Of a stretch of DNA of 20,000 bases, positions 2,124-19,182 are shown piece after piece. Made by a program: the position numbers and the translations under genes. Under the pieces are notes generated by a model. The model did not search any database. It worked only from the letters and a program-made list of their open reading frames with translations, and was not told the origin of the DNA. Every line of letters starts with the position of its first letter. Within the stretch, counting starts at the first letter, position 1. The stretch comes from a virus: positions 7,985-27,984 of IMG/VR virus record IMGVR_UViG_3300002242_000664; one strand, given 5' to 3'.

Positions 2124-5100
2124 ATGATCCGCATTGTAAGAAACGAAAATGGAAACTGCATTAACTTCGTGGGAACCTCGATGCCCGCATACTTTAATGC
2201 CTGCCTTTCCGGTGAAGTGGACTCATCCAACGATGAGCTCGTAAGCGTAGTCAATGACGTTCAAACTGCCACGACCGGCACAAAGAAGTATGAGTTCTTT
2301 CAGATTCACTTTACGGAGTGGGAGGACCGAGACGGGAACACATTCTCTAACTCACAAGAGGTTGCCGACTACATCACTGCCAACGGTAATGTCGTGGGAA
2401 TTGGCGAGACCGGAAGAGACCTAGTAGGTATCGACGTTAACTTCAGGCTAGACGATACGCATACCAGCGTGATCATGTCTAACGGCTTTTCGTTCGGCGT
2501 TAACACTATTCAGGCTGTTCCCCACACCGATGGGACAGTACACATTAACGCTGTCGGCACAGGGAATCCCTCGGATGGCTCTGACGCTAACACGAAACAA
2601 CACTTTCTCGGCCTTGAGGTCGGAAGGGTTCTAGTCAACGACCAAGTTGTGGCCGGGGGAATTAACACGGTCTGCAACAAGCTTAACGAACTGTTCACGG
2701 TCGGCCCGTTCGAGGCTGTGGTAATTACCGACCCGTTCTCAACGATGATTGCAGACGTTGACGGTGTTGCGGCTGCTGGTGGACTCGTCGGCTCCGGTGC
2801 AGTCGATCCAGCAGGCTCCGACATTGGCTCTAACACGGGCACTCATAACAATAACGCCGGATGGCTGGCAACTGACTCAATCGACCAGGCTGGCGAGTAT
2901 TACACGTTCGACATCAGGGGAGAGGGCCAGATCGGTTTCGGGCTTGTCCTCGATGACGCAGCTGACGTTAACGGTAACGCGACTTACGGAGACCCAGCTT
3001 CATTCTGTAACGGAGTAAACAATAGCCACTACGGTTACCAGTTCTCCCACTTCTTCCACCAGACGCCTAACGGCCCGTGGACGAACTACGGAGCCAATAC
3101 ATCTTACGTTCAGGGTCCAGGATGGTATAGCTCCACCCTGAGGTTCCCTGTTTCTGACGAAGGTGCTGACTGGCTAGCTGGCAACCCAGTTAAGATGAAG
3201 GTTGGCCTTGACACTAACGGTTATGTCTCCATTGAGTATTACGACGCCAGCGAGGGCCTCTGGGTCGTTTGCGCGAGGAGTGGATACCCAATCGCAGATG
3301 GAGTGTCCCTTAATCTTGGGATCAAATTCAGCAGAACAAGCGCAAGGCTCTTTAGTGCCCCTAAGATTCACCTACTTGAGTCAGCGGCGCCTGTTATGAA
3401 CTTCAGGTACATCGAGAGTCCGGACGGAAACTTCCACTATCCCCTGTTCTCGACAGCCGAAGAAGCTGAATACTACGACCAGAATCACGACGGGACAACA
3501 GGCACTGGTACCTACATTAGTTCCGTGTTCCCTGATGACCCATCTGGTACATCTTGGTTTCAGCCTGACACGGGTTACACCGACAACGGCTCCTCGGCTC
3601 CGTCAGGGGTAACATTCCAGTCCAACAGTATTAACTGGACAGAGATCACATCCCTGAGTGACTCGGACCTTGTGCCTCCTGCATTCAGTGGCCCCGACTA
3701 CACGTTCGCAGAGGACGACTCTGTTGGCATTCAGGTTTCAGCCCAAGATGTGTCCTACACGACAACCGTTTCTGGCCTGCCCAGTGGGCTGTCCCTGTCG
3801 GGCGGATACCTTATCTCCGGCACAACCAGGCACGTATTTGGGGACCAGACATACACCATTGTCGTAACTCGAACCAACTCTTACGGTTCAAGCAGCGGAA
3901 CCTTTGATATCACTGTCACTGACGACGTTGCACAGAACGCTATCCCTGGTTACTCGATTCACGGTCAGAACCCAATCACTCAGACCCCGGACCTGATTCA
4001 CCACTACAGTGGTGCAGTCAACTTAGACCTTGACCTGACCCTCAACCCTGGCACCGAGCTTACCTGGACACAGTTAAACTCCAGCCCCGTGGGCGGACAG
4101 GGTCAATATCTACAGATCGGAGTGGCCACCTCAGGTGTTGATAAGTCCACAACCCAGCTTGGAAACACTAACGCTGGGTGGGATTTGAAGTGTACAATCT
4201 GGACGAACAGCCTGAACCACAACTGGGCAACCGGATGGGTCAGTAATGCATCGCAGAGCTTCTCTACCAATAATGGCTCAGACTGGAGACTGGCGTTTCC
4301 TACTGACAATGGACCAATTGAGCTTTACCGTGACGGTGTGCTAGTTGCCACTTCGGCGATGAACTTCACTGGAAACCAGACTGTCACGGCAGCAGTTCCA
4401 GTAGCCTACAGCACAAGCACGCGAATGCCGTCCGTCACCAGGTCAGATATAACCTTCACCGGAGACCCGCCAGCCGGTTTCACGCAGACAAGCGGCTCCA
4501 TGTTGGACGCTAATACCCTGGGCGACAACTCGGTCGTAACGCTAGACTCAGTTCTTGAGCCTGGCAAAAGAATGATCGTTAACAAATCTTGGGTGGAGGC
4601 GAATGTTCTTCCTAATATACCCGACAGCTTGAAGAAGGCGTACGTGGCCGTGCCATCGCCCTCGGCAGCGTGGGGTAGTGTTGACCTGCATCTTGACTTC
4701 GACGCAGTAATGCGATGGGAGGGCACTAACAGCACCGACTCCCACAAGTCCACACTGGCGGACGGCAGTGATACTGTCGCGCGACACGAGGGTAGTATCG
4801 GCTCTTCCACTAACGCTTACTACCATTACGCGATCCAGTGGGACGGCACTGACCTGGTTGTCATGTCCGATACAGACATGTCTAAGCTGACCGGCACTAA
4901 CGACTACTCGCAGATGAACCGATACTCTGCCTACGAGTCTTATGGCGAACAGTCGGGAGACTTGCCCTTGGTGATGGCAACCAAGTCGAGCGGAAGCCTG
5001 ACCCTTAAGATGTCCGGAATTAGCTTTATCGACATACCTGCGGCACCAGTTAGTATCGTGACACCTTGGACTAAGGCAATTGACTTCTCTGGCTCAGCCG

Positions 5101-6005
5101 AGAGGATGCAGCAAGAAGGCGGAGGAACCTCGGCAAGAAACACCCTTTACCTTCCTAACGGTGTTACCGTGCCTGAGCATGGTACGGACCCAGCTTTAAC
5201 GTCAAACCATACGGACGCTCGCCCCTGGGCAACTGCCATTGTGTTCAAGGTTGACGGCCATAGCAGTAATCAACATATCTGGAATCACGGAGAGGGCCAG
5301 AACGGGGACAATATCTACCTCAGAATGAACTCTGCGGGCCACCTGTACTTCGGCTGGGGAATCGACGGTGGGAATAATGAGTGCAAAATCGTTGACGACC
5401 CCCTGGACACGAACCGCTGGTATGGCGTTTATGTTGCACATAGGGGTCCTCGATTCACTTCCGGGGACGCCACTGCGTCGAATCTCGCTTCTGCGTTCGA
5501 TATATATGTCACCGACTCGGTCGAGGAATTCGGTAGTTTCCCAGATGGAAACCGTAGCATCAGTTCGCAGTGGACGGCCACCGGAAACCGAATGAACAGG
5601 AGTATTAAGGGAAATACGTTCCTCGGGGGTCGTGATGCCAACCGCAGCTTCCACGGCAAGGTTGCATCCTTCGTTCTAACCAGTCTTAAGTTGGGTGAAG
5701 CCATGCCCGATGAAGCAGAAGCACTGATGATGGTTATGGACCCGAAGAAGTGGCTGACAGACTACAAGATCGGCAACACCTGGCGACAAACGGGTGCATC
5801 TTGGTCTAACGCCAACTTCCAAGTCGGAGATATCGGATGTGCCCGGGCTACCCAGGTATGGCTGATGGGCGACCGCACAAATGAACCATATGCGGTTATG
5901 CGGAACCAAGTAATGACTAGCGACCAGAACGAGACTGCAATTCGCATGGTCTCAATGGTCTCCAACGACATCCAGACGGTCAACATCTCTGGCCTGACTT
6001 CATAA
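2124..6005 (+). CDS. Large multidomain virion fibre/adhesin-type protein (putative Ig and LamG-like domains)
   Basis: A 1293-residue protein with GAGG at 2110-2113 before ATG 2124. A mosaic of beta domains can be read. The N-terminal unit is about residues 1-240. A second unit at about 245-425 begins near AGEYYTFDIRGEGQIGFGLV. A short 'YPLFSTAEEAEYYDQNHDGT' segment, also seen in other phage surface proteins, lies near residues 440-460. Residues about 515-601 form a putative Ig fold of the He_PIG type, ending in SSGTFDITVTDD after GLPSGLSLSGG. A beta-rich stretch follows to about 975. A concanavalin/LamG-like C-terminal domain at about 980-1215 contains AIDFSGSAERMQ, RPWATAIVFKVDG and SFHGKVASFVLTS. 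Such proteins usually bind host surface glycans as tail fibre or decoration. Cys is very rare and no protease motif was noticed. The virion location is inferred from neighbours. Confidence 0.7.
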   Translation: MIRIVRNENGNCINFVGTSMPAYFNACLSGEVDSSNDELVSVVNDVQTATTGTKKYEFFQIHFTEWEDRDGNTFSNSQEVADYITANGNVVGIGETGRDLVGIDVNFRLDDTHTSVIMSNGFSFGVNTIQAVPHTDGTVHINAVGTGNPSDGSDANTKQHFLGLEVGRVLVNDQVVAGGINTVCNKLNELFTVGPFEAVVITDPFSTMIADVDGVAAAGGLVGSGAVDPAGSDIGSNTGTHNNNAGWLATDSIDQAGEYYTFDIRGEGQIGFGLVLDDAADVNGNATYGDPASFCNGVNNSHYGYQFSHFFHQTPNGPWTNYGANTSYVQGPGWYSSTLRFPVSDEGADWLAGNPVKMKVGLDTNGYVSIEYYDASEGLWVVCARSGYPIADGVSLNLGIKFSRTSARLFSAPKIHLLESAAPVMNFRYIESPDGNFHYPLFSTAEEAEYYDQNHDGTTGTGTYISSVFPDDPSGTSWFQPDTGYTDNGSSAPSGVTFQSNSINWTEITSLSDSDLVPPAFSGPDYTFAEDDSVGIQVSAQDVSYTTTVSGLPSGLSLSGGYLISGTTRHVFGDQTYTIVVTRTNSYGSSSGTFDITVTDDVAQNAIPGYSIHGQNPITQTPDLIHHYSGAVNLDLDLTLNPGTELTWTQLNSSPVGGQGQYLQIGVATSGVDKSTTQLGNTNAGWDLKCTIWTNSLNHNWATGWVSNASQSFSTNNGSDWRLAFPTDNGPIELYRDGVLVATSAMNFTGNQTVTAAVPVAYSTSTRMPSVTRSDITFTGDPPAGFTQTSGSMLDANTLGDNSVVTLDSVLEPGKRMIVNKSWVEANVLPNIPDSLKKAYVAVPSPSAAWGSVDLHLDFDAVMRWEGTNSTDSHKSTLADGSDTVARHEGSIGSSTNAYYHYAIQWDGTDLVVMSDTDMSKLTGTNDYSQMNRYSAYESYGEQSGDLPLVMATKSSGSLTLKMSGISFIDIPAAPVSIVTPWTKAIDFSGSAERMQQEGGGTSARNTLYLPNGVTVPEHGTDPALTSNHTDARPWATAIVFKVDGHSSNQHIWNHGEGQNGDNIYLRMNSAGHLYFGWGIDGGNNECKIVDDPLDTNRWYGVYVAHRGPRFTSGDATASNLASAFDIYVTDSVEEFGSFPDGNRSISSQWTATGNRMNRSIKGNTFLGGRDANRSFHGKVASFVLTSLKLGEAMPDEAEALMMVMDPKKWLTDYKIGNTWRQTGASWSNANFQVGDIGCARATQVWLMGDRTNEPYAVMRNQVMTSDQNETAIRMVSMVSNDIQTVNISGLTS

Positions 6006-6085: not shown

Positions 6086-6628
6086 ATGCCAAAACTATCA
6101 AAAGTAGGAATGCACTCCGATGTCGTTAAGGTAATGGGTGCCCTTAAGGTGAACAGGGCCTTCAAGAGGCTCAGTAACCAGTTCAAGCATAAGGTCACTC
6201 GCTCCGTAACGTCTGCTGGTGCGGGTGTACTTAAGAAGGAAGTGAAGAAGCAGGTTCCACGGAACGGTAAGGACGCCAGAAAGAGGGATAACAAGGGTAC
6301 GCCGAGAGTCCAACTCTGGAAGGCTATACAGTCCATCCAGAGGAAGAAGAAGGGCGGCACTTGGTACTCGGTCGTCGGGCCTGGTTACAAGGTAGCACCA
6401 CATGACCACCTGGTCCACGACGGAACCAAGCCACATATCATCACCGGCTCCGCGAGGGTCGGGGCAAATAGATACGTCAGCAGAGAAGACTACCCTTACC
6501 TGTCTCCCGTTCACCACCCCGGTGCGAGGAAGAACGAATACATGACTCGCTCGGTACAGAAGGCTGGCCCCAGAATGGCTAGGGTCATGGCGAGTCGGAT
6601 CAAAACGAAAATAAGGCAATTCAAATGA
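6086..6628 (+). CDS. HK97 gp10-like head-tail connector / neck protein
   Basis: A 180-residue basic protein. A GTG at 6062 in the same frame lies inside the terminator hairpin, so ATG 6086 (MPKLSKVGMHSD) is chosen, though no clear ribosome binding site precedes it. The second half shows the gp10-family signature: HDHLVHDGTKPH (family pattern H-x-x-x-V-E-x-G-T), then SPVHHPGARKNEYMTRSVQK (family: H-P-G-x-x-x-x-P-F-M-x-x-A), and a basic C-terminal helix RVMASRIKTKIRQF. Family members act at the head-tail joint between connector and tail terminator. Overlap with the next gene by ATGA (6625-6628) and the gp11-like product that follows support the call. In typical phages this gene lies shortly after the capsid gene on the same strand; here it does not. 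Confidence 0.75.
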   Translation: MPKLSKVGMHSDVVKVMGALKVNRAFKRLSNQFKHKVTRSVTSAGAGVLKKEVKKQVPRNGKDARKRDNKGTPRVQLWKAIQSIQRKKKGGTWYSVVGPGYKVAPHDHLVHDGTKPHIITGSARVGANRYVSREDYPYLSPVHHPGARKNEYMTRSVQKAGPRMARVMASRIKTKIRQFK

Positions 6629-7044
6629 TAGAGGCAAGCATCTACTCGGCACTGACTGGTGACGCTACGCTGGCGGCCCTCGTCGGCACTAAGGTTCGCC
6701 CCGTTCAGGCAAGGATCGGCGACTCACACCCACTGCTCGTGTACACCGTGCAGGATGTGATGCCTATCGGCGACATTAACTGCGAGTCTGACACCAATGA
6801 GGCAACACTCATCTTGGACTCCTACTCACGCAGCTACCTTGAGGCGGCGTCAATTGACGAGGCTGCCTACAATGTCTTCAAGGCTACAGACGGTCGCTAC
6901 CCACGCACGATGGGAGACGAGCGTATCGGGAGCGTATACACCGATCAGGTAGATAACGACTCCTATGTACTAACGGATGATAACGATGCAGTTCTGTACC
7001 GTCGTAGGCGTACACTCGTTATCTGGTTCGAGCCAAATTCCTAA
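6625..7044 (+). CDS. Tail terminator / tail completion protein (gp11, DUF3168-like)
   Basis: A 139-residue protein overlapping the connector by four bases (ATGA). The start, MIEASIYSALTGDATLAALV, is typical of DUF3168-type tail completion proteins, which open with a helix 'x-I-y-x-x-L-t-x-d-x-x-l-a-a-L-V' followed by a strand with 'HPLLVYTV'. The middle has EATLILDSYSRSY and an alpha helix (ASIDEAAYNVFKA), and the C-terminal strand is RRRTLVIWFEP. The family caps the tail tube and joins it to the head. Order gp10-like, then this, then major tail protein, is the canonical siphovirus order. Confidence 0.75.
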   Translation: MIEASIYSALTGDATLAALVGTKVRPVQARIGDSHPLLVYTVQDVMPIGDINCESDTNEATLILDSYSRSYLEAASIDEAAYNVFKATDGRYPRTMGDERIGSVYTDQVDNDSYVLTDDNDAVLYRRRRTLVIWFEPNS

Positions 7045-7056
7045 AAGTTAACTTTT
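7043..7056. repeat. Perfect 14-bp palindrome before the major tail gene
   Basis: AAAAGTTAACTTTT is perfectly self-complementary. It begins inside the stop codon of the tail terminator gene and ends two bases before the AAAAGGAG ribosome binding site of the major tail gene. It could form a weak RNA hairpin or a DNA-binding site; the sequence does not decide. Confidence 0.6.
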
Positions 7057-7071
7057 GAAAAGGAGCCAGTT

Positions 7072-7485
7072 ATGGCTTGCAAGCTGACACAGGTTACGGG
7101 AACGACCGTTTCCTTTGCTACGCTCTCCGCCACGCTCAACGTGACGGCGATTGACTTCGGCGGGGTTTCCCGCGAGTCGCTGGAAGACACTGTCATCGGC
7201 GACAACTACCGCAAGTTCTGCCCGTCGACCCTGATCGACAACGGCGAACTGACGCTGAGCGTCAATGCGGACCCGGATCACGGTATCCTGATGGCACCAA
7301 CAGACGTGGAAGAGGCGGTTACTGTCACTTTCCCCGCTCCTGCTGGAAAGTCGACGGGTGCTTCGTTCGCGTTCAACGGTTTCGTCACTGACGTTAACCT
7401 GTCTGGCGAACAGGGCGAGAAGTACGAAGGCGACGTGACTGTCCGCATCAGCGGAGAGATTACTGTCACGGCTTCCGCCATCTAA
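7072..7485 (+). CDS. Major tail (tube) protein
   Basis: A 137-residue protein with a strong ribosome binding site (AAAAGGAG about eight bases before ATG). It is acidic, beta-rich and low in bulky residues, starting MACKLTQVTGTTVSFATLSA. Diagnostic-looking parts are the 'FGGVSRESLEDTVIGDNYRKF' region (tail-tube proteins commonly have 'T-s-l-x-d-x-x' near here), then NGELTLSVNADPDH, and a closing pair of strands ending VTVRISGEITVTASAI. Tube proteins polymerise as hexameric rings to make the siphovirus tail. Position between the tail terminator and the frameshifted chaperone is canonical. The gene is bracketed by two short palindromes and followed by a strong terminator, fitting high expression. 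Confidence 0.8.
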   Translation: MACKLTQVTGTTVSFATLSATLNVTAIDFGGVSRESLEDTVIGDNYRKFCPSTLIDNGELTLSVNADPDHGILMAPTDVEEAVTVTFPAPAGKSTGASFAFNGFVTDVNLSGEQGEKYEGDVTVRISGEITVTASAI

Positions 7486-7499
7486 TCCAAGTTGGATTA
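7483..7499. repeat. Inverted repeat spanning the stop of the major tail gene
   Basis: TAATCCAA (7483-7490) and TTGGATTA (7492-7499) are perfect inverted arms around one base, and the left arm includes the TAA stop. As RNA it would form a hairpin of six to seven pairs. It lies just before the strong terminator at 7513 and may stabilise the transcript end. Confidence 0.6.
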
Positions 7500-7512
7500 A
7501 GGCTAATTACTG

Positions 7513-7546
7513 GCGGGCAGGACAACGCCGTCCTGCTCGCTTTTTT
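7513..7546 (+). terminator. Strong intrinsic terminator after the major tail gene
   Basis: GCGGGCAGGAC (7513-7523) pairs with GTCCTGCTCGC (7530-7540) over eleven positions with one G-T wobble and a six-base loop, followed directly by six T, then C and five more T. It ends just before the AGGAGAGG ribosome binding site of the next gene. The chaperone and tape-measure genes downstream must rely on read-through or antitermination unless a promoter lies inside upstream coding sequence. Confidence 0.92.
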
Positions 7547-7569
7547 CTTTTTACCACAGGAGAGGTAAG

Positions 7570-7887
7570 ATGTCTGATTTGAAAAGTAAGTTCCTGGCCA
7601 TTCAGTCCGCCAAGATCGTGCCCGTGCAGGGTGCAGAAGGCTTCTTCGTTAAGGAGCTGACCGCTGGCGACCGCGACCGCTGGGAGAAGTCCATCGAGCA
7701 GCCGGACCCACGCTCACGAACGATCATCATCTCGTTGTGCGATGCGGAAGGCAGTCTCGTCTTCGGTAAGAACGACTCCAAGGAAGTGGGTCAAATCCCC
7801 GCGAGCCTCGCGGACGCAGTGCTGGAAGCCTTCAAAGTCGCCAATGGGGTGACTGAGGAAGAGGCGGACGCCATTGAGGGAAACTAG
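7570..7887 (+). CDS. Tail assembly chaperone, short form (gpG-like)
   Basis: A 105-residue product with ribosome binding site AGGAGAGGT seven bases before ATG. The sequence is compact: a basic N-terminal segment, FFVKELTAGDRDRWEKSIEQ (tail chaperones often have 'v-x-E-l-t-v-x-e-r-d-x-w' here), an 'IISLCDAEGSLVFGKND' strand pair, and a helix LADAVLEAFKVANGVTEEEAD. Chaperones of this type bind the tape-measure protein and recruit tail tube subunits. Its last codons carry a slippery heptamer, so it is also the N-terminal part of a longer product. The position between the major tail and tape-measure genes is where gpG/gpGT genes always lie in long-tailed phages. Confidence 0.8.
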   Translation: MSDLKSKFLAIQSAKIVPVQGAEGFFVKELTAGDRDRWEKSIEQPDPRSRTIIISLCDAEGSLVFGKNDSKEVGQIPASLADAVLEAFKVANGVTEEEADAIEGN

Positions 7888-8189
7888 CGTCGGACGCCGC
7901 TGAGCAACTTTGGTGCTTCATCGCCTACCGTGTACTGGGATGCACGGTGGGCGAGGCCAAAGCAAGGTTCACGATGTCCGAATTCTACAATTTTGCCGCC
8001 TACAAGAAGATTGCCCCGTGGGGTGACGATTGGGACCAGGCGTCAATTATCGCCAGCATGTGCTATAGAGGGAAGGGGAGGAAGAAACCGAAAGACTTCC
8101 GGCCTAATTATAAACGGAAGTCTCAGTCTGCTGAGGATATGTTTGCAGGCTTTGAGGCGTTTGCTAAACGACATAATAGAAACGCATAA
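7570..8189 (+). CDS. Tail assembly chaperone fusion by -1 frameshift (gpGT-like)
   Basis: Reading 7570-7884 and then slipping back one base gives about 206 residues, ending at TAA 8187-8189. The -1 frame is closed by TGA at 7875 and open from 7878, so the only window for slipping contains GGGAAAC. The extension begins LASDAAEQLWCFIAYRVLGC, continues with MSEFYNFAAYKKIAPWGDDW, and ends in a basic segment (RGKGRKKPKDFRPNYKRKSQ) and a helix. 'EFYNFAAYKKIAPWG' resembles the T part of other chaperone fusions, which often carry 'W-x-x-y-x-x-x-e-P-x-g'. A GTG at 7947 could start the second frame alone but has no good ribosome binding site and lies in a hairpin. In known gpG/gpGT pairs only a minority of ribosomes shift. 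Confidence 0.8.
7878..7884 (+). promoter_or_regulatory. Slippery heptamer for programmed -1 frameshift
   Basis: G GGA AAC, with zero-frame codons GAG-GGA-AAC followed at once by TAG. This is the X-XXY-YYZ pattern: after slipping, the two tRNAs re-pair with GGG and AAA. A small hairpin GCGT/ACGC (7887-7897) starts two bases after the heptamer, and a stronger one lies at 7922-7953. Confidence 0.85.
7922..7953 (+). promoter_or_regulatory. Strong RNA hairpin downstream of the frameshift site
   Basis: CGCCTACCGTG (7922-7932) pairs with CACGGTGGGCG (7943-7953): eleven pairs with one wobble and a ten-base loop. It is about 37 bases past the heptamer, farther than the usual 5-9 for a stimulator, and no T run follows, so it is not a terminator. 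It also buries a GTG at 7947. Confidence 0.6.
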
Positions 8190-8191
8190 AA

Positions 8192-11100
8192 ATGCCTAAA
8201 GCGAAAACAATCGGTCGGCTTGGCGTCGTGGTGGGACTTGATATATCCCAGCTCACCAAGGGCGTCAAGTCGGCTGGAATGCAGGTCAAGAGCTTTAACC
8301 GCACGATGGGCGGGATGGCTGCTGGTATCAGCGGTGCTGTCGCCGCAATGGCTGGCTTCAGGGTGCTTGGTAAGTCGGTCGCTACGGCTTCCAACCTTGA
8401 GCAGGCCCTCAGTCATGTCCGGGCACGTACACGAGCCTCAGCGGACACTATGGCCGAGCTGACGGCTGCTGCACGAGAGCTTGGGCGAACGACCCAGTTC
8501 ACCTCGACAGAGGCCGCGCAGGGCATGGAGCTGATCGCCCGTAACGGCTTCAAGGCGAAGGATGCAATTGTCGCCATTACGCGAGAGGCGTTGAACCTCG
8601 CGTCCGTGGACGGCCTTGAGGGCGGAATCTCCAAGTCGTCCGACATCCTCACGAAGCTGATGCGTCAGTACAACCTGAACTTCGACGAGGCTTCCCGGAT
8701 CGCCGATACGATGGCGATCTCGGCAGACAACGCCGCCACCAGCGTGGGCGAGCTGTTCCGCAACATGGAAATCTCAGGCGCCCAGGCTAGGGCGTTGGGA
8801 ATGGACCTGAAGACCGCCGCTGCGTGGCAGGCGGAAATCTCCGACCTTCGCGGCGAGCGTCGTGCTGGTACGTCACTGCGTGCTATGCTGGGTGCCATGT
8901 CTGCACCGACCGAGAAGGCCAAGGAGGCCATGAGGCAGCTCAAGACTGAGAGTGGCGAAGCCTTCTCGTTCCTGGACAAGGACGGCAACTTCAAGGACCT
9001 GCTGACCATCATCAAGGAATTCGAGTTCGCGTTCAAGGACATGAGCGAGGGGCAGATTCCTGAAATCCTCGCCGACATGTTCGAGCAAGAGGGCCTGAGT
9101 ACCCTGATGGCCGTTCTGAAGGCCGGAACCGATAAGGTTGAGTCCAACCTCGGGAAGGTCGCCAATGCGTGGCACAGTGCGAACTCGGAAGCTCAGGAGA
9201 TGGCTAGCATTCGTCTGGACAACGTGCTGGGCGGACTCACGAGGCTCAAATCGGCCACTGAGCATGTCATGGAGTCCTTCAGTCTGCCGATGCTGCCTTT
9301 CTTCAAGGAAGTCATCGACAGCGTTAAGGTGGGAATGCAGACGTTCTCGAAGTGGGCCGCCAAGGCTGGCGTGAGCGTGACGAACCTGATGCGTGAGACC
9401 CTCAACGGGAGCGGCAAGGCACTGCCTACGCTGATCCGCATGGGGGCGTCCCTGACCGCCATCGGGGCCTCAGCAATCGCCGCCGGTGCTGCCTTCAGGA
9501 TCATGGCATTTGGTGTCGGTATCGCCTCGACTGCCTTCCATGCCCTCAGGGGGGCCGCATACGCCTCTCTCACAGCCGCTACGGCTGTCGCAGGCGTGTC
9601 CATGATGGCAACCTTGGGAGTGAGCGTTTTGGCCACCACAGCGGCTCTCTGGGCGTTTCACGGGGTGCTGATTAAGATAAGCGTAGGCTTCGTGGCCATG
9701 ATCGCCAAGGGCGTCGGTGCCATGCTGGCCTGGGTGGCAACCGGGATCGCCACTCTGGCGGCACAGGGTGCGGCCCTTATGGCGAGACTTGCAGCCGCCA
9801 TTGCGGTCGAGTTCGCGGCAATCGTATCGACGGTCGGGGCAGGAATCGCGGGCGTGTTCGCTAACCTGGCAAATATGGTCGTGGGTCTGATTGGCGGTGT
9901 CGCAAGGTTGGCGGCCCTGATGGCTGAGGTGGTCTTCCAGGCTATCGCGTTCGTTGCAGAGCTTGTGGCAGCGTCTGCCGCCGAGGTCATGGGGGCGTTG
10001 GTTGCTGGGTTCCAGATGATCGCTACCGCCATTGCCAGCGTTGTCGGGACGATGCTGACGGGCCTGGCCTCCGCGATCCCGATCATGCTCGGAATCGCCG
10101 CTGCGGGCATTGGGGCGTTCCTGTTTATCGCCGCCGCTGCCGGTGCCCTGTTCCTCGCCACTGAGGACGGCGTGGCCGGACTGAAGCTCGGCTGGCAGTC
10201 CCTCAAGGAGAACGTAAGCAGTATCATCAGGTCGTGGCAGGGCGCCTTTAAGGCGATGTTCGACCTGGCCCTTCAGCTCGGCAAGAGCTTCTTCGCCGCC
10301 CTCGGCATCGACTTCGACGCAACCGCTGACGGAGTAGGGTCCACTTGGAAGAGCATGATGGCCAACCTGGGCGTCAGTGTCACCAAGCTCGGTATGTATG
10401 TCAGGGCAATTGCTAAGGACTGGCGAACCGTCTCTGACGTTGCCAATGCTGCTTGGGATTCAGTCTGGGCAAACTTCAAGGTAAAAGGGTTCCTGGCGAT
10501 GGGGCACATAGCTAACTGGCTCATCGAGAAGATAGGCGGGGCACTTGAGTGGGCAGCGGAAAAGCTGGCCAGCCTGGGGGAAATTATAGAGATAAACATA
10601 AGTCTTGCGGCTCTCGCAGTCAATCCCCTGATTGGCAACGAAGAGAGACAGGAGAAAATGGCCAGGCTGCACGAAAAGAAGGATGCCTTCTATAAGATGG
10701 ACCCGAACGACGGTGGACGCCTCGACATCATGGCCGACCTTGAGAAGGAAGCCAAGGCTGCCAATGAGAGGATCGGAAAAACAATGGAGAGCGTCCACTC
10801 TGACGTTGGAGTAATGGAGAAGGCCGAGGCTTCCAACATCTTCGACGACGCTAACGTTGAGGTCGGCGAGATTCACGCCGAGATGGACAAGGACTTCGCT
10901 CGCGAGTACGGAGACTCGGCCCCGTCGCCCGTGAGCCGGTTCCACGAACTCAAGAAGCAAGAGGCACGGGAGCTGGCACGAGAGAGTGCCATGAGCCGAG
11001 CAACGCAGTTCGACAGGCCCACCGCGACGGCAGAGAACGAGAGGTGGCTTAGCCCGTTTAAGCAGGATACGCCATTGGTCCCCGAGGATGTGTTCAAGGA

Positions 11101-11302
11101 AATGCCAAAGGGCACGGGACCGCTGGGTCTCCCAGAGGTCGAACTGGAGCCGGTCACCAGTGGTATCGAAGCACTAAATAATACTACGGACGCAGCGGCC
11201 AAGGAGCAGACAGCGGAACTCCGCGAGATGAACGGCTACCTGCGAGAAATGAACCGTGAATCGGGCCGAACAACATACCAGCCCATCGTGACGATGAGCT
11301 AA
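8192..11302 (+). CDS. Tail tape measure protein (TP901 family)
   Basis: A 1036-residue protein that sets tail length and crosses the host envelope during DNA entry. The TP901-type core lies at about residues 55-260: ASNLEQALSHVRARTRASAD, ARELGRTTQFTSTEAAQGME, the 'ASVDGLEGGISKSSDILTKL' stretch, IADTMAISADNAATSVGEL and LRAMLGAMSAPTEKAKEAM. Residues about 408-656 are an unusually long Ala/Gly-rich hydrophobic region with several possible membrane helices. The rest is helical, acidic and basic by turns, ending in QTAELREMNGYLREMNRESG, a short coiled-coil-like end. The gene starts three bases after the chaperone fusion stop and has no Shine-Dalgarno-like sequence upstream (ACGCATAAAA before ATG), which hints at coupling to translation of the frameshifted chaperone. 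Confidence 0.92.
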   Translation: MPKAKTIGRLGVVVGLDISQLTKGVKSAGMQVKSFNRTMGGMAAGISGAVAAMAGFRVLGKSVATASNLEQALSHVRARTRASADTMAELTAAARELGRTTQFTSTEAAQGMELIARNGFKAKDAIVAITREALNLASVDGLEGGISKSSDILTKLMRQYNLNFDEASRIADTMAISADNAATSVGELFRNMEISGAQARALGMDLKTAAAWQAEISDLRGERRAGTSLRAMLGAMSAPTEKAKEAMRQLKTESGEAFSFLDKDGNFKDLLTIIKEFEFAFKDMSEGQIPEILADMFEQEGLSTLMAVLKAGTDKVESNLGKVANAWHSANSEAQEMASIRLDNVLGGLTRLKSATEHVMESFSLPMLPFFKEVIDSVKVGMQTFSKWAAKAGVSVTNLMRETLNGSGKALPTLIRMGASLTAIGASAIAAGAAFRIMAFGVGIASTAFHALRGAAYASLTAATAVAGVSMMATLGVSVLATTAALWAFHGVLIKISVGFVAMIAKGVGAMLAWVATGIATLAAQGAALMARLAAAIAVEFAAIVSTVGAGIAGVFANLANMVVGLIGGVARLAALMAEVVFQAIAFVAELVAASAAEVMGALVAGFQMIATAIASVVGTMLTGLASAIPIMLGIAAAGIGAFLFIAAAAGALFLATEDGVAGLKLGWQSLKENVSSIIRSWQGAFKAMFDLALQLGKSFFAALGIDFDATADGVGSTWKSMMANLGVSVTKLGMYVRAIAKDWRTVSDVANAAWDSVWANFKVKGFLAMGHIANWLIEKIGGALEWAAEKLASLGEIIEINISLAALAVNPLIGNEERQEKMARLHEKKDAFYKMDPNDGGRLDIMADLEKEAKAANERIGKTMESVHSDVGVMEKAEASNIFDDANVEVGEIHAEMDKDFAREYGDSAPSPVSRFHELKKQEARELARESAMSRATQFDRPTATAENERWLSPFKQDTPLVPEDVFKEMPKGTGPLGLPEVELEPVTSGIEALNNTTDAAAKEQTAELREMNGYLREMNRESGRTTYQPIVTMS

Positions 11303-14858: not shown

Positions 14859-15355
14859 CACAGTTAATCTATAACACAAGAGAGACGGCCCTCGTCTTTG
14901 CGGATAGCTCGCAGACGCCTGACGCCAACCTTACACTGAGTGCCCTTGCCGCTGATGCTGGCAGGGTGTCGGATCAGCAAGACCTGACTGCAACATCATC
15001 AAGGATGTATGAGTGGCGAGCTGTCGTGCAGTTCGGAACAGCCCCCGTGGCGGGTGAGGCAGTCAACAGCTACGCAGCCTATGGTGACACGACCGTGCAG
15101 GATGGCGGTGTCGGGACTATGGACTCGGCACTGGGTTCAGTCAACACTCTGCCTAACCTGCACTTCATCGGTAGCGTTGTTGTTGATACGACCTCGACAA
15201 ACACTGACGTTGTCGCTTCGGGCGTCTTCGCCTGCTCGTCACGCTACATCACAATCGTTGTTCACAACAACACAGCCGACGCACTGAGGACGAGCGGCAC
15301 AGTTAACAATGTAACCATCACGCCAATCCCTGACCAGATTCAGAATGACGTATAA
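14855..15355 (+). CDS. Conserved phage structural protein
   Basis: A 166-residue protein starting at GTG 14855, within the stop of the preceding gene (GTGA). It is beta-rich: ETALVFADSSQTPDANLTLS, then SRMYEWRAVVQFGTAPVAGE, NLHFIGSVVVDTTSTNTDVV, and 'CSSRYITIVVHNNTADALRT' with the end VTITPIPDQIQNDV. This matches an unnamed phage family with 'x-Y-e-W-r-a-x-x-x-f-x-x-a-P-x-A-G', 'L-x-F-I-G-S-l-v' and 'R-Y-x-x-l-V-v-x-N-x-S/t', found next to fibre genes. It probably sits at the virion surface or baseplate. Stop and next start overlap as TAATG. Confidence 0.6.
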   Translation: MTQLIYNTRETALVFADSSQTPDANLTLSALAADAGRVSDQQDLTATSSRMYEWRAVVQFGTAPVAGEAVNSYAAYGDTTVQDGGVGTMDSALGSVNTLPNLHFIGSVVVDTTSTNTDVVASGVFACSSRYITIVVHNNTADALRTSGTVNNVTITPIPDQIQNDV

Positions 15356-18156
15356 TGCTTAGAGGCTCACTAAAGTCTGGATTTGCACCACGCGACTATA
15401 AGCCAGCCAACCCTGAGCTGTGGGATGGCTGTATAGCTGCTTGGTGTCCAGGCTTGGGGCCAACTGGGCACGCACTGATCGACTACAGCGGTTCAGGATA
15501 TCACGGCGATGTCATCACGTCCGGGACGCAGATGTCCCCGGTGGATATGTGGGACCTGGACGACGGAGGCTGGGCGCTCAACTTCGAGAACACCGGCTCT
15601 CGTGGCGATAACCACGTTAAGTTGAGAGCCAGCAGCCAGGACATGGTTGACCCTACGGGCGCGTTCGCCGTGTCCCTGTGGGTGAGGCGTACACTGGATA
15701 GTGCGTTCGACGGATTCATCTCCTTTGGCGACAACTTCGATAACTCGTTCAACCTCAACCATCAGGTGAACGACCGCTTCTCAATCATGTGTAATGACGA
15801 GCCTGGTCTTTACATCTTAGAGGACAGCACAGCCGACAGGTCGAGCGACTTCGATTGGCACCACCTGATTGCGACAAGTGATGCATCTGGCCTCACGATC
15901 TGGGTGGACGGAGTTAAGGGTAGCACGGGAGCCGTCCCTACGACGCAGAGTAGTGCTTCGGCGGCTTACATCGGAAAGATGTATGCCAACGACACCAGTG
16001 CCCACGGTATGAATGGCTACCTGGACGACATCCGTGTATACAACAGGCCACTCTGCGACGAGGAGATCGCACTCCTCTACACTGGCAGGGGTGTCTCCTA
16101 CGAGTACAGGCTGAACTATCAGTTTCCGCCCACGCCCCCAACGCCCATTAACGTCAATGGTACGGTGGCAGATGCGGCATGGGATACGCAGGCCCCGACC
16201 CTACATCCGAAGCTGGATGCGACTGTCGCGGACAGCGAGTGGGATACGCAGGCCTGCTCCACGGCAGTGCATAAGTCTTCCACGGTTGCGAATTCGGCAT
16301 GGGACACCCAAGTCCCGACGGTAGTGCCGAGATTCAAGGCGCCGGACAGGGATGCAGACTGGACGCTCTCTAGCGGAACAATTAACACTGGCGACTATTA
16401 CGACGAGTCAGGAAGCCCCGGAATTGGTCGGCTCCAGGACTGCGTTCTTCGCTTCGACATGACAACCACGAACGCCTCGCTGATAGCTTTTGAAGATGGG
16501 AAGATATTTCACGCCGGGGACAGCAGTGGCGGCATCTGGGTGGGCGTCACCAGCAATACCCTTAAGGTGATCGCTTCAGACAATGGCGGCTCAGGTTCCA
16601 TCACAGTGAACGAGAGCGTCTTTGGTGTTTTCCAAGACGGTGTAGCTAAAGAGGTGATGATTGACGTACAGAGCGGAAGAGGCAACCATAGCGAGAACGG
16701 CAGAATCAGACTATTCCTTGACGGCGAGCTGATAGGCACCGATACGACAACTGGTGGACTCTACCTTTCCTCTGGATGGTTCACTGATACAAGCTCCGAA
16801 TACCTGAGCTACGCTGAAACCAGTATGCCGCACGGCGAGGCTGACGGATCAATTACGAACGCCACATTCGGCGACCTGGACTTCTGGACAGAGTGCAACG
16901 TCGGTGATACCACATTTAATGGGCAGGCTAACTCGCAGTGGGACACGCAGTCGGCAACAACTGCGACGGAACAACTGGCGACCGTCGCCGACGCTGAGTG
17001 GGACACCCTGCCCTGCTCAACGGTGGACAATAAGAACTCCACCGTAGCGGACGCCGAATGGGACACGCAGGCTCCAGCGACATCTGCTGGCCTAGGATCG
17101 ACCGTAGCCGACGCAGAGTTCGACACTCTGGCCTGCACGACAGCCACTGAGCATCCATCCACAGTCTCTGACTCAGAGTGGGACACGCTCGCACCGACGA
17201 CGCAGCCGAAGCTCGACGCTACGGTCGCGGACTCCGAATGGGACACACTGCCCTGCTCCACGGTCTCTCACGCAGGAGCAACCGTAGCCGACGCTGAGTG
17301 GGACACTCTGCTGCCTGTAGTTAATGGCAGGTTCGCGGCGGTTGTTGCGAATACTGAGTGGGACACGCTCGCCTGCTCGACTGCGGACCAGAAGGCCGCC
17401 ACACTCCCGAATTCGGAGTGGGACACCCTCGCACCAGTCACGGTTGCCTACCAGCCCTCAACGGTCGCGGACGCCGAGTGGGATACGCTCACGCCATCGA
17501 CGGTATCACATGCTGACTCGACCGTTGCCGATGGCGAGTGGGATACGGTTACCCCGGCAATCAGCGGAGCTTTCGTTAATCCGGTTGCGGATGCCCAGTG
17601 GGACACCCTGGCCTGCTCCACGGTGGATCATAAGAACTCCACGGTGGCTGACGCTGAATGGGACACGCAGGCATGTGAAACGCTTATCACCTACGCCGGG
17701 ACAGTCGCCAGCTCGGAGTGGGACACCCAGGCCCCGTCGACTGTCGCGCAACAGCCTGCCGTCACTGCGGACGCCGAGTGGGATGTCCAGCCGGGAATGC
17801 TGCCGATCAAGATACCGAGCGTCGAGGCAGACACTCAGTGGGACACGTTCCCTTGGGAGATTAAGAGGACCTATAACAATCCCATAGCGGATACACAGTG
17901 GGACACTCAGGTTCCCGTTGCAGAGCCTTACGCTTTCTTCACCCCAGCGATGAGCCTCACTGCGAGACTCTGCCCCTACGCTGGCGAGTTCCTTGAGTTC
18001 ACAAGCGAGAACGCCGTCTCGGGCAGCCACAAGTCCGAGGCCCTGGGTCAGCACGAGATGAAGTCCGGGTCGCTCTCGAACACCGAGATGTCCGGCGGGT
18101 CACTCTCTACCGCCCAGATGATCCGAGTCGGCGGAACGACTTTTCCCACTGCATAA
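15355..18156 (+). CDS. LamG-domain fibre-type protein with 20 copies of a 20-residue W-D-T repeat
   Basis: A 933-residue protein whose ATG overlaps the upstream stop (TAATG). Residues about 20-250 form a LamG/concanavalin-like domain, recognised from GAFAVSLWVRRTLD, HHLIATSDASGLTIWVDGVK and GYLDDIRVYNRPLCDEEIAL. At about residues 270-329 come three 20-residue repeats. A second LamG-like domain follows at about 330-522 (LQDCVLRFDMTTTNASLIAF through RIRLFLDGELIGTDTTTGGL). Then seventeen further repeats fill about 523-862. The repeat core is T-V-A-D-x-E-W-D-T-[LQ]-x-[CP]. The last 70 residues are Ser/Gly/Met-rich, with 'KSGSLSNTEM' and 'SGGSLSTAQM' as a diverged pair. A virion fibre or adhesin is likely; the LamG parts probably bind glycans. 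No signal peptide is seen, as expected for a virion protein. Confidence 0.75.
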   Translation: MLRGSLKSGFAPRDYKPANPELWDGCIAAWCPGLGPTGHALIDYSGSGYHGDVITSGTQMSPVDMWDLDDGGWALNFENTGSRGDNHVKLRASSQDMVDPTGAFAVSLWVRRTLDSAFDGFISFGDNFDNSFNLNHQVNDRFSIMCNDEPGLYILEDSTADRSSDFDWHHLIATSDASGLTIWVDGVKGSTGAVPTTQSSASAAYIGKMYANDTSAHGMNGYLDDIRVYNRPLCDEEIALLYTGRGVSYEYRLNYQFPPTPPTPINVNGTVADAAWDTQAPTLHPKLDATVADSEWDTQACSTAVHKSSTVANSAWDTQVPTVVPRFKAPDRDADWTLSSGTINTGDYYDESGSPGIGRLQDCVLRFDMTTTNASLIAFEDGKIFHAGDSSGGIWVGVTSNTLKVIASDNGGSGSITVNESVFGVFQDGVAKEVMIDVQSGRGNHSENGRIRLFLDGELIGTDTTTGGLYLSSGWFTDTSSEYLSYAETSMPHGEADGSITNATFGDLDFWTECNVGDTTFNGQANSQWDTQSATTATEQLATVADAEWDTLPCSTVDNKNSTVADAEWDTQAPATSAGLGSTVADAEFDTLACTTATEHPSTVSDSEWDTLAPTTQPKLDATVADSEWDTLPCSTVSHAGATVADAEWDTLLPVVNGRFAAVVANTEWDTLACSTADQKAATLPNSEWDTLAPVTVAYQPSTVADAEWDTLTPSTVSHADSTVADGEWDTVTPAISGAFVNPVADAQWDTLACSTVDHKNSTVADAEWDTQACETLITYAGTVASSEWDTQAPSTVAQQPAVTADAEWDVQPGMLPIKIPSVEADTQWDTFPWEIKRTYNNPIADTQWDTQVPVAEPYAFFTPAMSLTARLCPYAGEFLEFTSENAVSGSHKSEALGQHEMKSGSLSNTEMSGGSLSTAQMIRVGGTTFPTA
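16162..16341 (+). repeat. First block: three 60-bp coding repeats
   Basis: Three in-frame 60-base units encode TVADAAWDTQAPTLHPKLDA, TVADSEWDTQACSTAVHKSS and TVANSAWDTQVPTVVPRFKA. In order, they resemble units 5-7 of the second block (PKLDA, then C-S-T, then a R-F-x-A ending), which suggests that one block was copied from the other. Confidence 0.9.
16921..17940 (+). repeat. Second block: seventeen 60-bp coding repeats
   Basis: Seventeen consecutive units of exactly 60 bases, no insertions or deletions. The consensus is T-V-A-D-A-E-W-D-T-[LQ]-x-[CP]-x-T; Trp and Asp of WD are present in all but one (unit 4 has FDT). Synonymous codons differ widely between units, so they are old or selected at protein level rather than a fresh slippage expansion. 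Confidence 0.95.
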
Positions 18157-18741: not shown

Positions 18742-19182
18742 TCACTCGGGTGACTCAATCTTCACGTCGTCCGAGATGTCAGCCGAAACGCTGTTGTACT
18801 TACGCTCAGCCGAGACAACTGCGAGAACGCTGTTGACTTCGCTGGCAGCGACAGTTCGCTCGACGATGCAGCGGACGTACTGCTTCGTGCATCGAGCAAC
18901 GTCCACAACCAGCAACTTGTCGCTACCGTCAGTGACGGTCGCACGAGGATCGACAGGATCGCTAGGAGCGGCCCAAGTCGAGTTATCGTCAGACAGTTCG
19001 ACGCCAACCGAGACGACTCCGCCAGACAGCACGGCACCGAGGTGCACGAGGAAAGAAACGTCAGAAGCCTTGTGGGCATCCAGGTCAATCGAAGCGGCTT
19101 CGATCTTTGTCGTTCCTGAAGCAACTGCGTCCGAAGCAATCACTGGCGTCACGACTTCCGTGAGAAGGTTATTGTTCTGCAT
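18742..19182 (-). CDS. Post-capsid virion structural protein (conserved phage family)
   Basis: A 146-residue acidic, beta-rich protein. On the - strand ATG follows AAGGTAGTTACCA. The sequence, MQNNNLLTEVVTPVIASDAV, then ASIDLDAHKASDVSFLVHLG, VVSVGVELSDDNSTW, DKLLVVDVARCTKQYVRCIV and VNSVLAVVSAERKYNSVSAD, matches the layout of small proteins commonly encoded just after the major capsid gene in siphoviruses ('..i...s.DmsgydsvtFv...G.i..g.....l..sdd...w', 'd.dn.ll.vdv.r...rYvr..v.rg', 'a.v..vl..........'). The exact role, whether decoration or head-completion, is not certain. It follows the capsid gene with about 70 bases between them, containing a GC-rich hairpin. Confidence 0.65.
   Translation of the reverse strand: MQNNNLLTEVVTPVIASDAVASGTTKIEAASIDLDAHKASDVSFLVHLGAVLSGGVVSVGVELSDDNSTWAAPSDPVDPRATVTDGSDKLLVVDVARCTKQYVRCIVERTVAASEVNSVLAVVSAERKYNSVSADISDDVKIESPE

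Follow-up and report, generated by a model that had tools for sequence, protein, structure and literature searches.

An exact 20-residue WDT tandem repeat in a LamG-domain protein encoded by a viral tail module

An open reading frame (ORF) of a viral contig contains a repeat that recurs twenty times at a length of exactly 20 residues. The questions raised by this locus are what kind of protein carries the repeat, whether the repeat belongs to a described family and what the units do. The window analysed was a stretch of 20,000 nucleotides corresponding to bases 7985-27984 of the source record, a virus contig from IMG/VR that is 27,984 bases long.

Protein architecture and gene context

The coordinates of the features are collected in Table 1. 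Domain 1 of the repeat-bearing protein scored 69.9 bits against the Pfam profile Laminin_G_3 (gathering cut-off 27.6) and belongs to the LamG / concanavalin-like lectin superfamily; it is probably carbohydrate-binding. The domain between the two repeat blocks gave no family match in searches of Pfam and PHROGs. A preliminary description of the locus had placed the repeats at 16162-17940. Both blocks lie inside this span, but they do not form one continuous array, as 193 residues of unique sequence stand between them. A possible degenerate unit following block 1 (W336, exactly 20 residues past W316) scored -12.7, compared with at least +28 for real units, and was not counted. The C-terminus also contains a short imperfect tandem repeat, SGSLSxxEM, with a period of 30 nt at 18066-18125, which is unrelated to the WDT units.

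Table 1. Positions within the window of the repeat-bearing ORF, its parts and two neighbouring genes
Feature	Position	Strand	Basis or remark
1293-aa protein, full-length relation to cyanophage 'fiber Ig/hemolysin'	2124..6005	+	context
Tape measure protein	8192..11302	+	tail-module context
ORF, 933 aa, LamG protein with two WDT-repeat blocks	15355..18156	+	ATG overlaps/abuts upstream ORF stop (TAATG)
N-terminal signature KSGFAPRDYKPANPELW, common to relatives (L162: KSGYAPRDGEPLYPNLH)	15373..15423	+	sequence comparison
LamG / concanavalin-like domain 1	15400..16131	+	Pfam Laminin_G_3, aa 84-239, E 3.5e-19; family alignment; 70 related viral loci
Repeat block 1, three 20-residue WDT units, aa 270-329	16162..16341	+	
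Unique 193-aa domain separating both repeat blocks	16342..16920	+	by eye resembles a jelly roll; no family match
Repeat block 2, seventeen WDT units of 20 residues in unbroken series, aa 523-862, no indels	16921..17940	+	
C-terminal 71 aa, Ser/Gly-rich	17941..18156	+	sequence

The ORF closes a + strand tail module in which an HK97-gp10-like protein, a tail terminator, a major tail protein and the tape measure protein are encoded in that order. An HNH endonuclease and small uncharacterised proteins are encoded between the tape measure and the ORF. An HK97-type major head protein is encoded on the - strand at the end of the window. Two small - strand proteins near the head genes (window 18742-19182 and record 2529-2993) are of similar size and by eye possibly paralogous; neither gave a Pfam match. 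Upstream of the window, record bases 6202-6879 encode a class 3 lipase (Pfam Lipase_3, E 9.5e-22); the gene that follows, for a trypsin-like plus thioredoxin-like fusion protein (record bases 6881-8098), extends into the window. Full-length relatives of the 1293-aa protein, at 32-37% identity, were found in marine cyanophages, e.g. PSS2; other genes of the contig did not point to those phages.

The repeat unit and its divergence

The twenty WDT units each measure exactly 60 nt, or 20 residues, and are arranged 3 + 17; all 18 unit-to-unit steps within the blocks are exactly 20 residues. The unit motif is T-V-A-D-[AS]-E-W-D-T-[LQ]-x-[PC]. The unit length, the copy number, the 3 + 17 arrangement and the core TVADxEWDT[LQ] had been given in the preliminary description, and were all recovered here. 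Over the twenty units the core residues were counted as T1 14, V2 15, A3 18, D4 15 (N 4, S 1), E6 14 (Q 4, A 2), W7 19 (F 1) and T9 19, with D8 invariant (20/20). Position 10 is divided between Q (9) and L (9) and position 12 is mainly P (10) or C (7). Hardly any constraint is visible in columns 15-19, and the columns of the unit are almost without Gly. The most frequent residues of the array are A, T, D, V, S and P, and 19 of the 20 units carry a net charge of -2 to -4.

Self-comparison of aa 523-862 at a lag of 20 residues gave 140 identities, compared with 27.9 +/- 4.9 in 2000 shuffles (maximum 45). In the DNA, the pattern TGGGAY x3 at 60-nt spacing occurred 13 times, and 0 times in 200 shuffles. 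The array was not reported by Tandem Repeats Finder at the DNA level; the mean DNA identity of two-unit windows is about 52%. Identical residues are encoded by the same codon in 0.414 of pairs, where 0.387 is expected for independent draws from the codon usage of the phage. Unit pairs gave a median dN of 0.56 and a median dS of 1.47, with 96/190 pairs lacking a usable divergence estimate and treated as saturated. Because codon choice is near-random and synonymous sites are near-saturated, the array is old and held by selection at the protein level, in agreement with the earlier proposal that strict unit length together with wide synonymous divergence indicates such selection.

The array still bears faint signs of block duplication. 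Units 5-6 and 15-16 are 70% identical in DNA, block 1, compared unit by unit in order, is most similar to units 8-10 of all twenty (63% aa, 61% DNA), and the first and last three units of block 2 are among the most divergent. P-type and C-type units alternate with a period of 40 residues in the variable half, where pairs separated by an even number of steps are more alike than pairs separated by an odd number (permutation p 0.002-0.03, by block taken). This alternation is weak and may stem from duplication of two units at a time, not from structure.

Relatives of the protein and of the repeat

In IMG/VR, 25 viral loci matched a degenerate pattern designed on the signature A-W-C-P-x-L-G-x-T-G, and a profile search with domain 1 retrieved 70 viral loci with a best E of 3e-26 (E relative to the candidates only). 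By these comparisons the protein is a member of a family of LamG phage proteins with an AWCPxLGxTG start. The relatives are LamG proteins; some (L155, L162, L181), like the phage protein of L151, are chains of several LamG modules with short linkers between them, and L162 has the N-terminal peptide KSG[YF]APRD in common with the present protein. A domain 1 relative is also carried by one Planctomycetaceae metagenome-assembled genome (MAG). This makes Planctomycetaceae at most a candidate host group, as LamG is widespread there and the gene at 2124-6005 points to cyanophages.

Approximately 21 of 67 distinct relative ORFs contain a 13-residue NVGGTWK repeat after the LamG domain, usually in three units; in PHROGs this repeat matches PHROG 6977 (minor tail protein) at its C-terminal end. 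The first block of WDT units occupies the equivalent position. The NVGGTWK proteins (L125, L166, L200) resemble the present protein in the type of LamG domain at the N-terminus and in its signature (25-32% identity), and also in carrying short tandem units with one Trp each after the LamG domain, in three copies as in block 1. The NVGGTWK unit differs in its length of 13 residues, in its GG-T-W-K motif without a WDT core and in its copy number of about three. It was considered as an ancestor of the WDT unit on the basis of a shared V-x3-W-x4-P spacing and rejected, with an hhalign probability of about 0 and no HMM cross-hits; the likeness is one of position and design only. The assignment to a fibre-type protein made in the preliminary description is supported by the LamG domain, by the position downstream of the tape measure and by the LamG and minor tail relatives in phages.

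No relative of the WDT repeat was detected by HMM/profile and sequence searches in Pfam, PHROGs or PDB sequences, which agrees with the earlier failure to assign it to a named family. None was found in INPHARED (tblastn), in IMG/VR by peptide and DNA patterns, in GTDB by one peptide-pattern scan or, with the repeat HMM, in 392 genomes from the phylum to which the Planctomycetaceae MAG belongs. As a positive control, the HMM recovered the window itself at 1.7e-30. The pattern scans demand exact codon patterns, which strongly diverged units would escape. The TGGGAY x3 scan returned at least 119 loci; the matches listed were mainly 4-residue WDAA/WDSV repeats and out-of-frame occurrences. A WDT x3 match in L118 was out of frame and was rejected. 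From a two-copy WDT scan yielding 83 stretches, none passed the inclusion threshold of the repeat HMM bar the window's own loci. L020 (A6 HMM, E 0.0005) was rejected as a biased 4-residue WDSV repeat. Long in-frame 4-residue repeats of the WDAARDAA, WDSVRDSV and WDQLRDQL type are present in many IMG/VR contigs (L006, L008, L030, L057, L100, L115 and others). The WDT repeat thus appears to be an orphan within the collections searched, where near relatives of its own record may be absent.

Predicted structure, possible functions and known repeat systems

The preliminary description had suggested a beta solenoid, a rigid stalk or a ligand array. An AF2 model of aa 521-862 alone contained regular strands at TVA and EWDTL in most units, which suggests a coil that makes one turn every 20 residues, with pLDDT 53.3 (28-53 across the five models) and pTM 0.44. 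The solenoid is therefore drawn by AF2, but at low confidence, and it was not reproduced in 60-residue windows with an 8-row alignment, which gave coil and no strands (pLDDT 58, pTM 0.12). The imperfection of the natural units also lowers AF2 confidence. In published tests, AF2 turned >40% of perfect repeats of random sequence into beta-solenoids, for the most part with pLDDT >= 70 (PMC11795689). In view of the low pLDDT, the loss in the 60-residue run and this bias, the solenoid was rejected as evidence. Foldseek with the array model found no PDB match at E < 0.001. In charge-hydropathy the array falls almost exactly on the line dividing order from disorder (0.466 vs 0.462), and its hydrophobic moments did not separate helix from strand.

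Our tentative reading is that a tailed phage carries this protein distally, as a minor tail or fibre protein, and that the WDT units would form a fixed-pitch spacer beside LamG, either folded or at least regular in conformation. The LamG/concanavalin-type domain, three WDT units, the second unique domain and seventeen WDT units would follow one another, each unit consisting of a small module of beta structure around V-A-D-x-E-W-D-T and a variable connector of ~10 residues. Stacked units would give an elongated stalk that sets the distance from adhesive domain to virion. Regular structure is suggested because unit length is exact despite near-saturated divergence; the Trp-Asp core, being conserved, may contact neighbouring units or a partner, and the connector, being free to vary, is probably exposed. 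The lack of any indel in 18 steps would be unexpected for a loose linker, and together with the nine-position core kept beside a free connector it argues for a spacer. So do the homologues of domain 1, which are LamG chains or carry short W-repeats in the same place matching PHROG 6977, and the gene's place in the tail module, where the genes for tape measure, tail terminator and major tail protein precede it; a location in the virion is suggested by the same context and relatives. The strands drawn by AF2 point weakly the same way. Against a fixed-pitch spacer are the low AF2 confidence, the strandless 60-residue run, the solenoid bias and the empty Foldseek search, the charge-hydropathy near the boundary, and the acidity of the array, in which in-register stacking would crowd like charges unless cations bind.

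Bound cations are the basis of a very unlikely alternative, a parallel beta-solenoid in which D4, E6 and D8 would line up along the axis and hold Ca2+ or Mg2+ as in RTX or antifreeze beta-rolls. In its favour, the acidic positions change mainly to the oxygen-keeping residues N, Q and S and D8 is constant, and the AF2 model is a solenoid with a 20-residue coil; but that model is unreliable, no RTX or other repeat family was matched and E6 is Ala in two units. A serious though less likely rival to the spacer is that the array is a disordered, extended tether rich in Thr, Ala, Ser, Pro and Asp with a WDT core left mainly by duplication; the composition, the boundary position in charge-hydropathy, the low AF2 confidence and the coil of the 60-residue model would all suit it. 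Disordered tethers normally tolerate indels, whereas here exact length and a nine-position core were kept at near-saturated synonymous sites, and Trp in 19/20 units would not be expected. As probable as the tether is a ligand array, with one acidic-Trp-Asp-Thr binding motif per unit and avidity for a repetitive partner (host polymer or virion protein), as in choline-binding repeats with their 20-residue beta-hairpin module. W7, D8 and T9 could form a contact surface while the remainder drifts, the units are about as long as choline-binding repeats (PMC4471590), and a separate three-unit block beside domain 1 suits a motif working in small numbers; yet no choline-binding or other repeat model of Pfam matched, and each unit core has a single aromatic with no GW or WYY signature.

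That the array is a new repeat fold, a strict 20-residue module with Trp and Asp/Glu ladders in a long stalk that divalent cations may clamp, and with a two-module period of 40 residues, is considered distinctly improbable. A unit of exact length over twenty near-saturated copies, unmatched in the collections searched, is nevertheless a clean target for such a fold, and a good test case for telling genuine structures of repeats from solenoids that AF2 produces as artefacts. If the array is only another fibre spacer, its value is that of a new entry in a known class.

Among known systems, WD40 beta-propellers (blades of about 40 residues) gave no Pfam match to the array, and the GGxGxD nonapeptides of the RTX beta-roll are absent from the units, again with no Pfam match. 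Beta-solenoid repeats of the pentapeptide, RTX and haemagglutinin type have coils of about 20 residues, as in the AF2 model, and gave no sequence match. Choline-binding repeats of the pneumococcal LytA type likewise form tandem arrays of units of about 20 residues with Trp; their hairpin-plus-linker modules build a two-strand solenoid (PMC4471590). The WDT unit differs in lacking the GW...WYY aromatic set, with one aromatic per core, and choline-binding and cell-wall-binding models did not match the array (Pfam, E up to 10). The IGW(D) repeats of L102 and of Nocardia phage NTR1 Orf50 (L124), a related pair with about four tandem units, likewise occur in a phage protein and have units of some 20 residues that contain W (WDI in L102); the NTR1 gene lies a few positions past the tape measure. 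They differ in motif order and in a carrier without recognised LamG, and showed no meaningful BLASTP similarity to the array. Repetitive virus fibres are a familiar kind of protein, and phage adhesins often use repetitive stalks. As judged from sequence, the WDT units make up a new family of repeats, carried by a phage tail protein of repetitive build: the repeat sequence is new and the object familiar.
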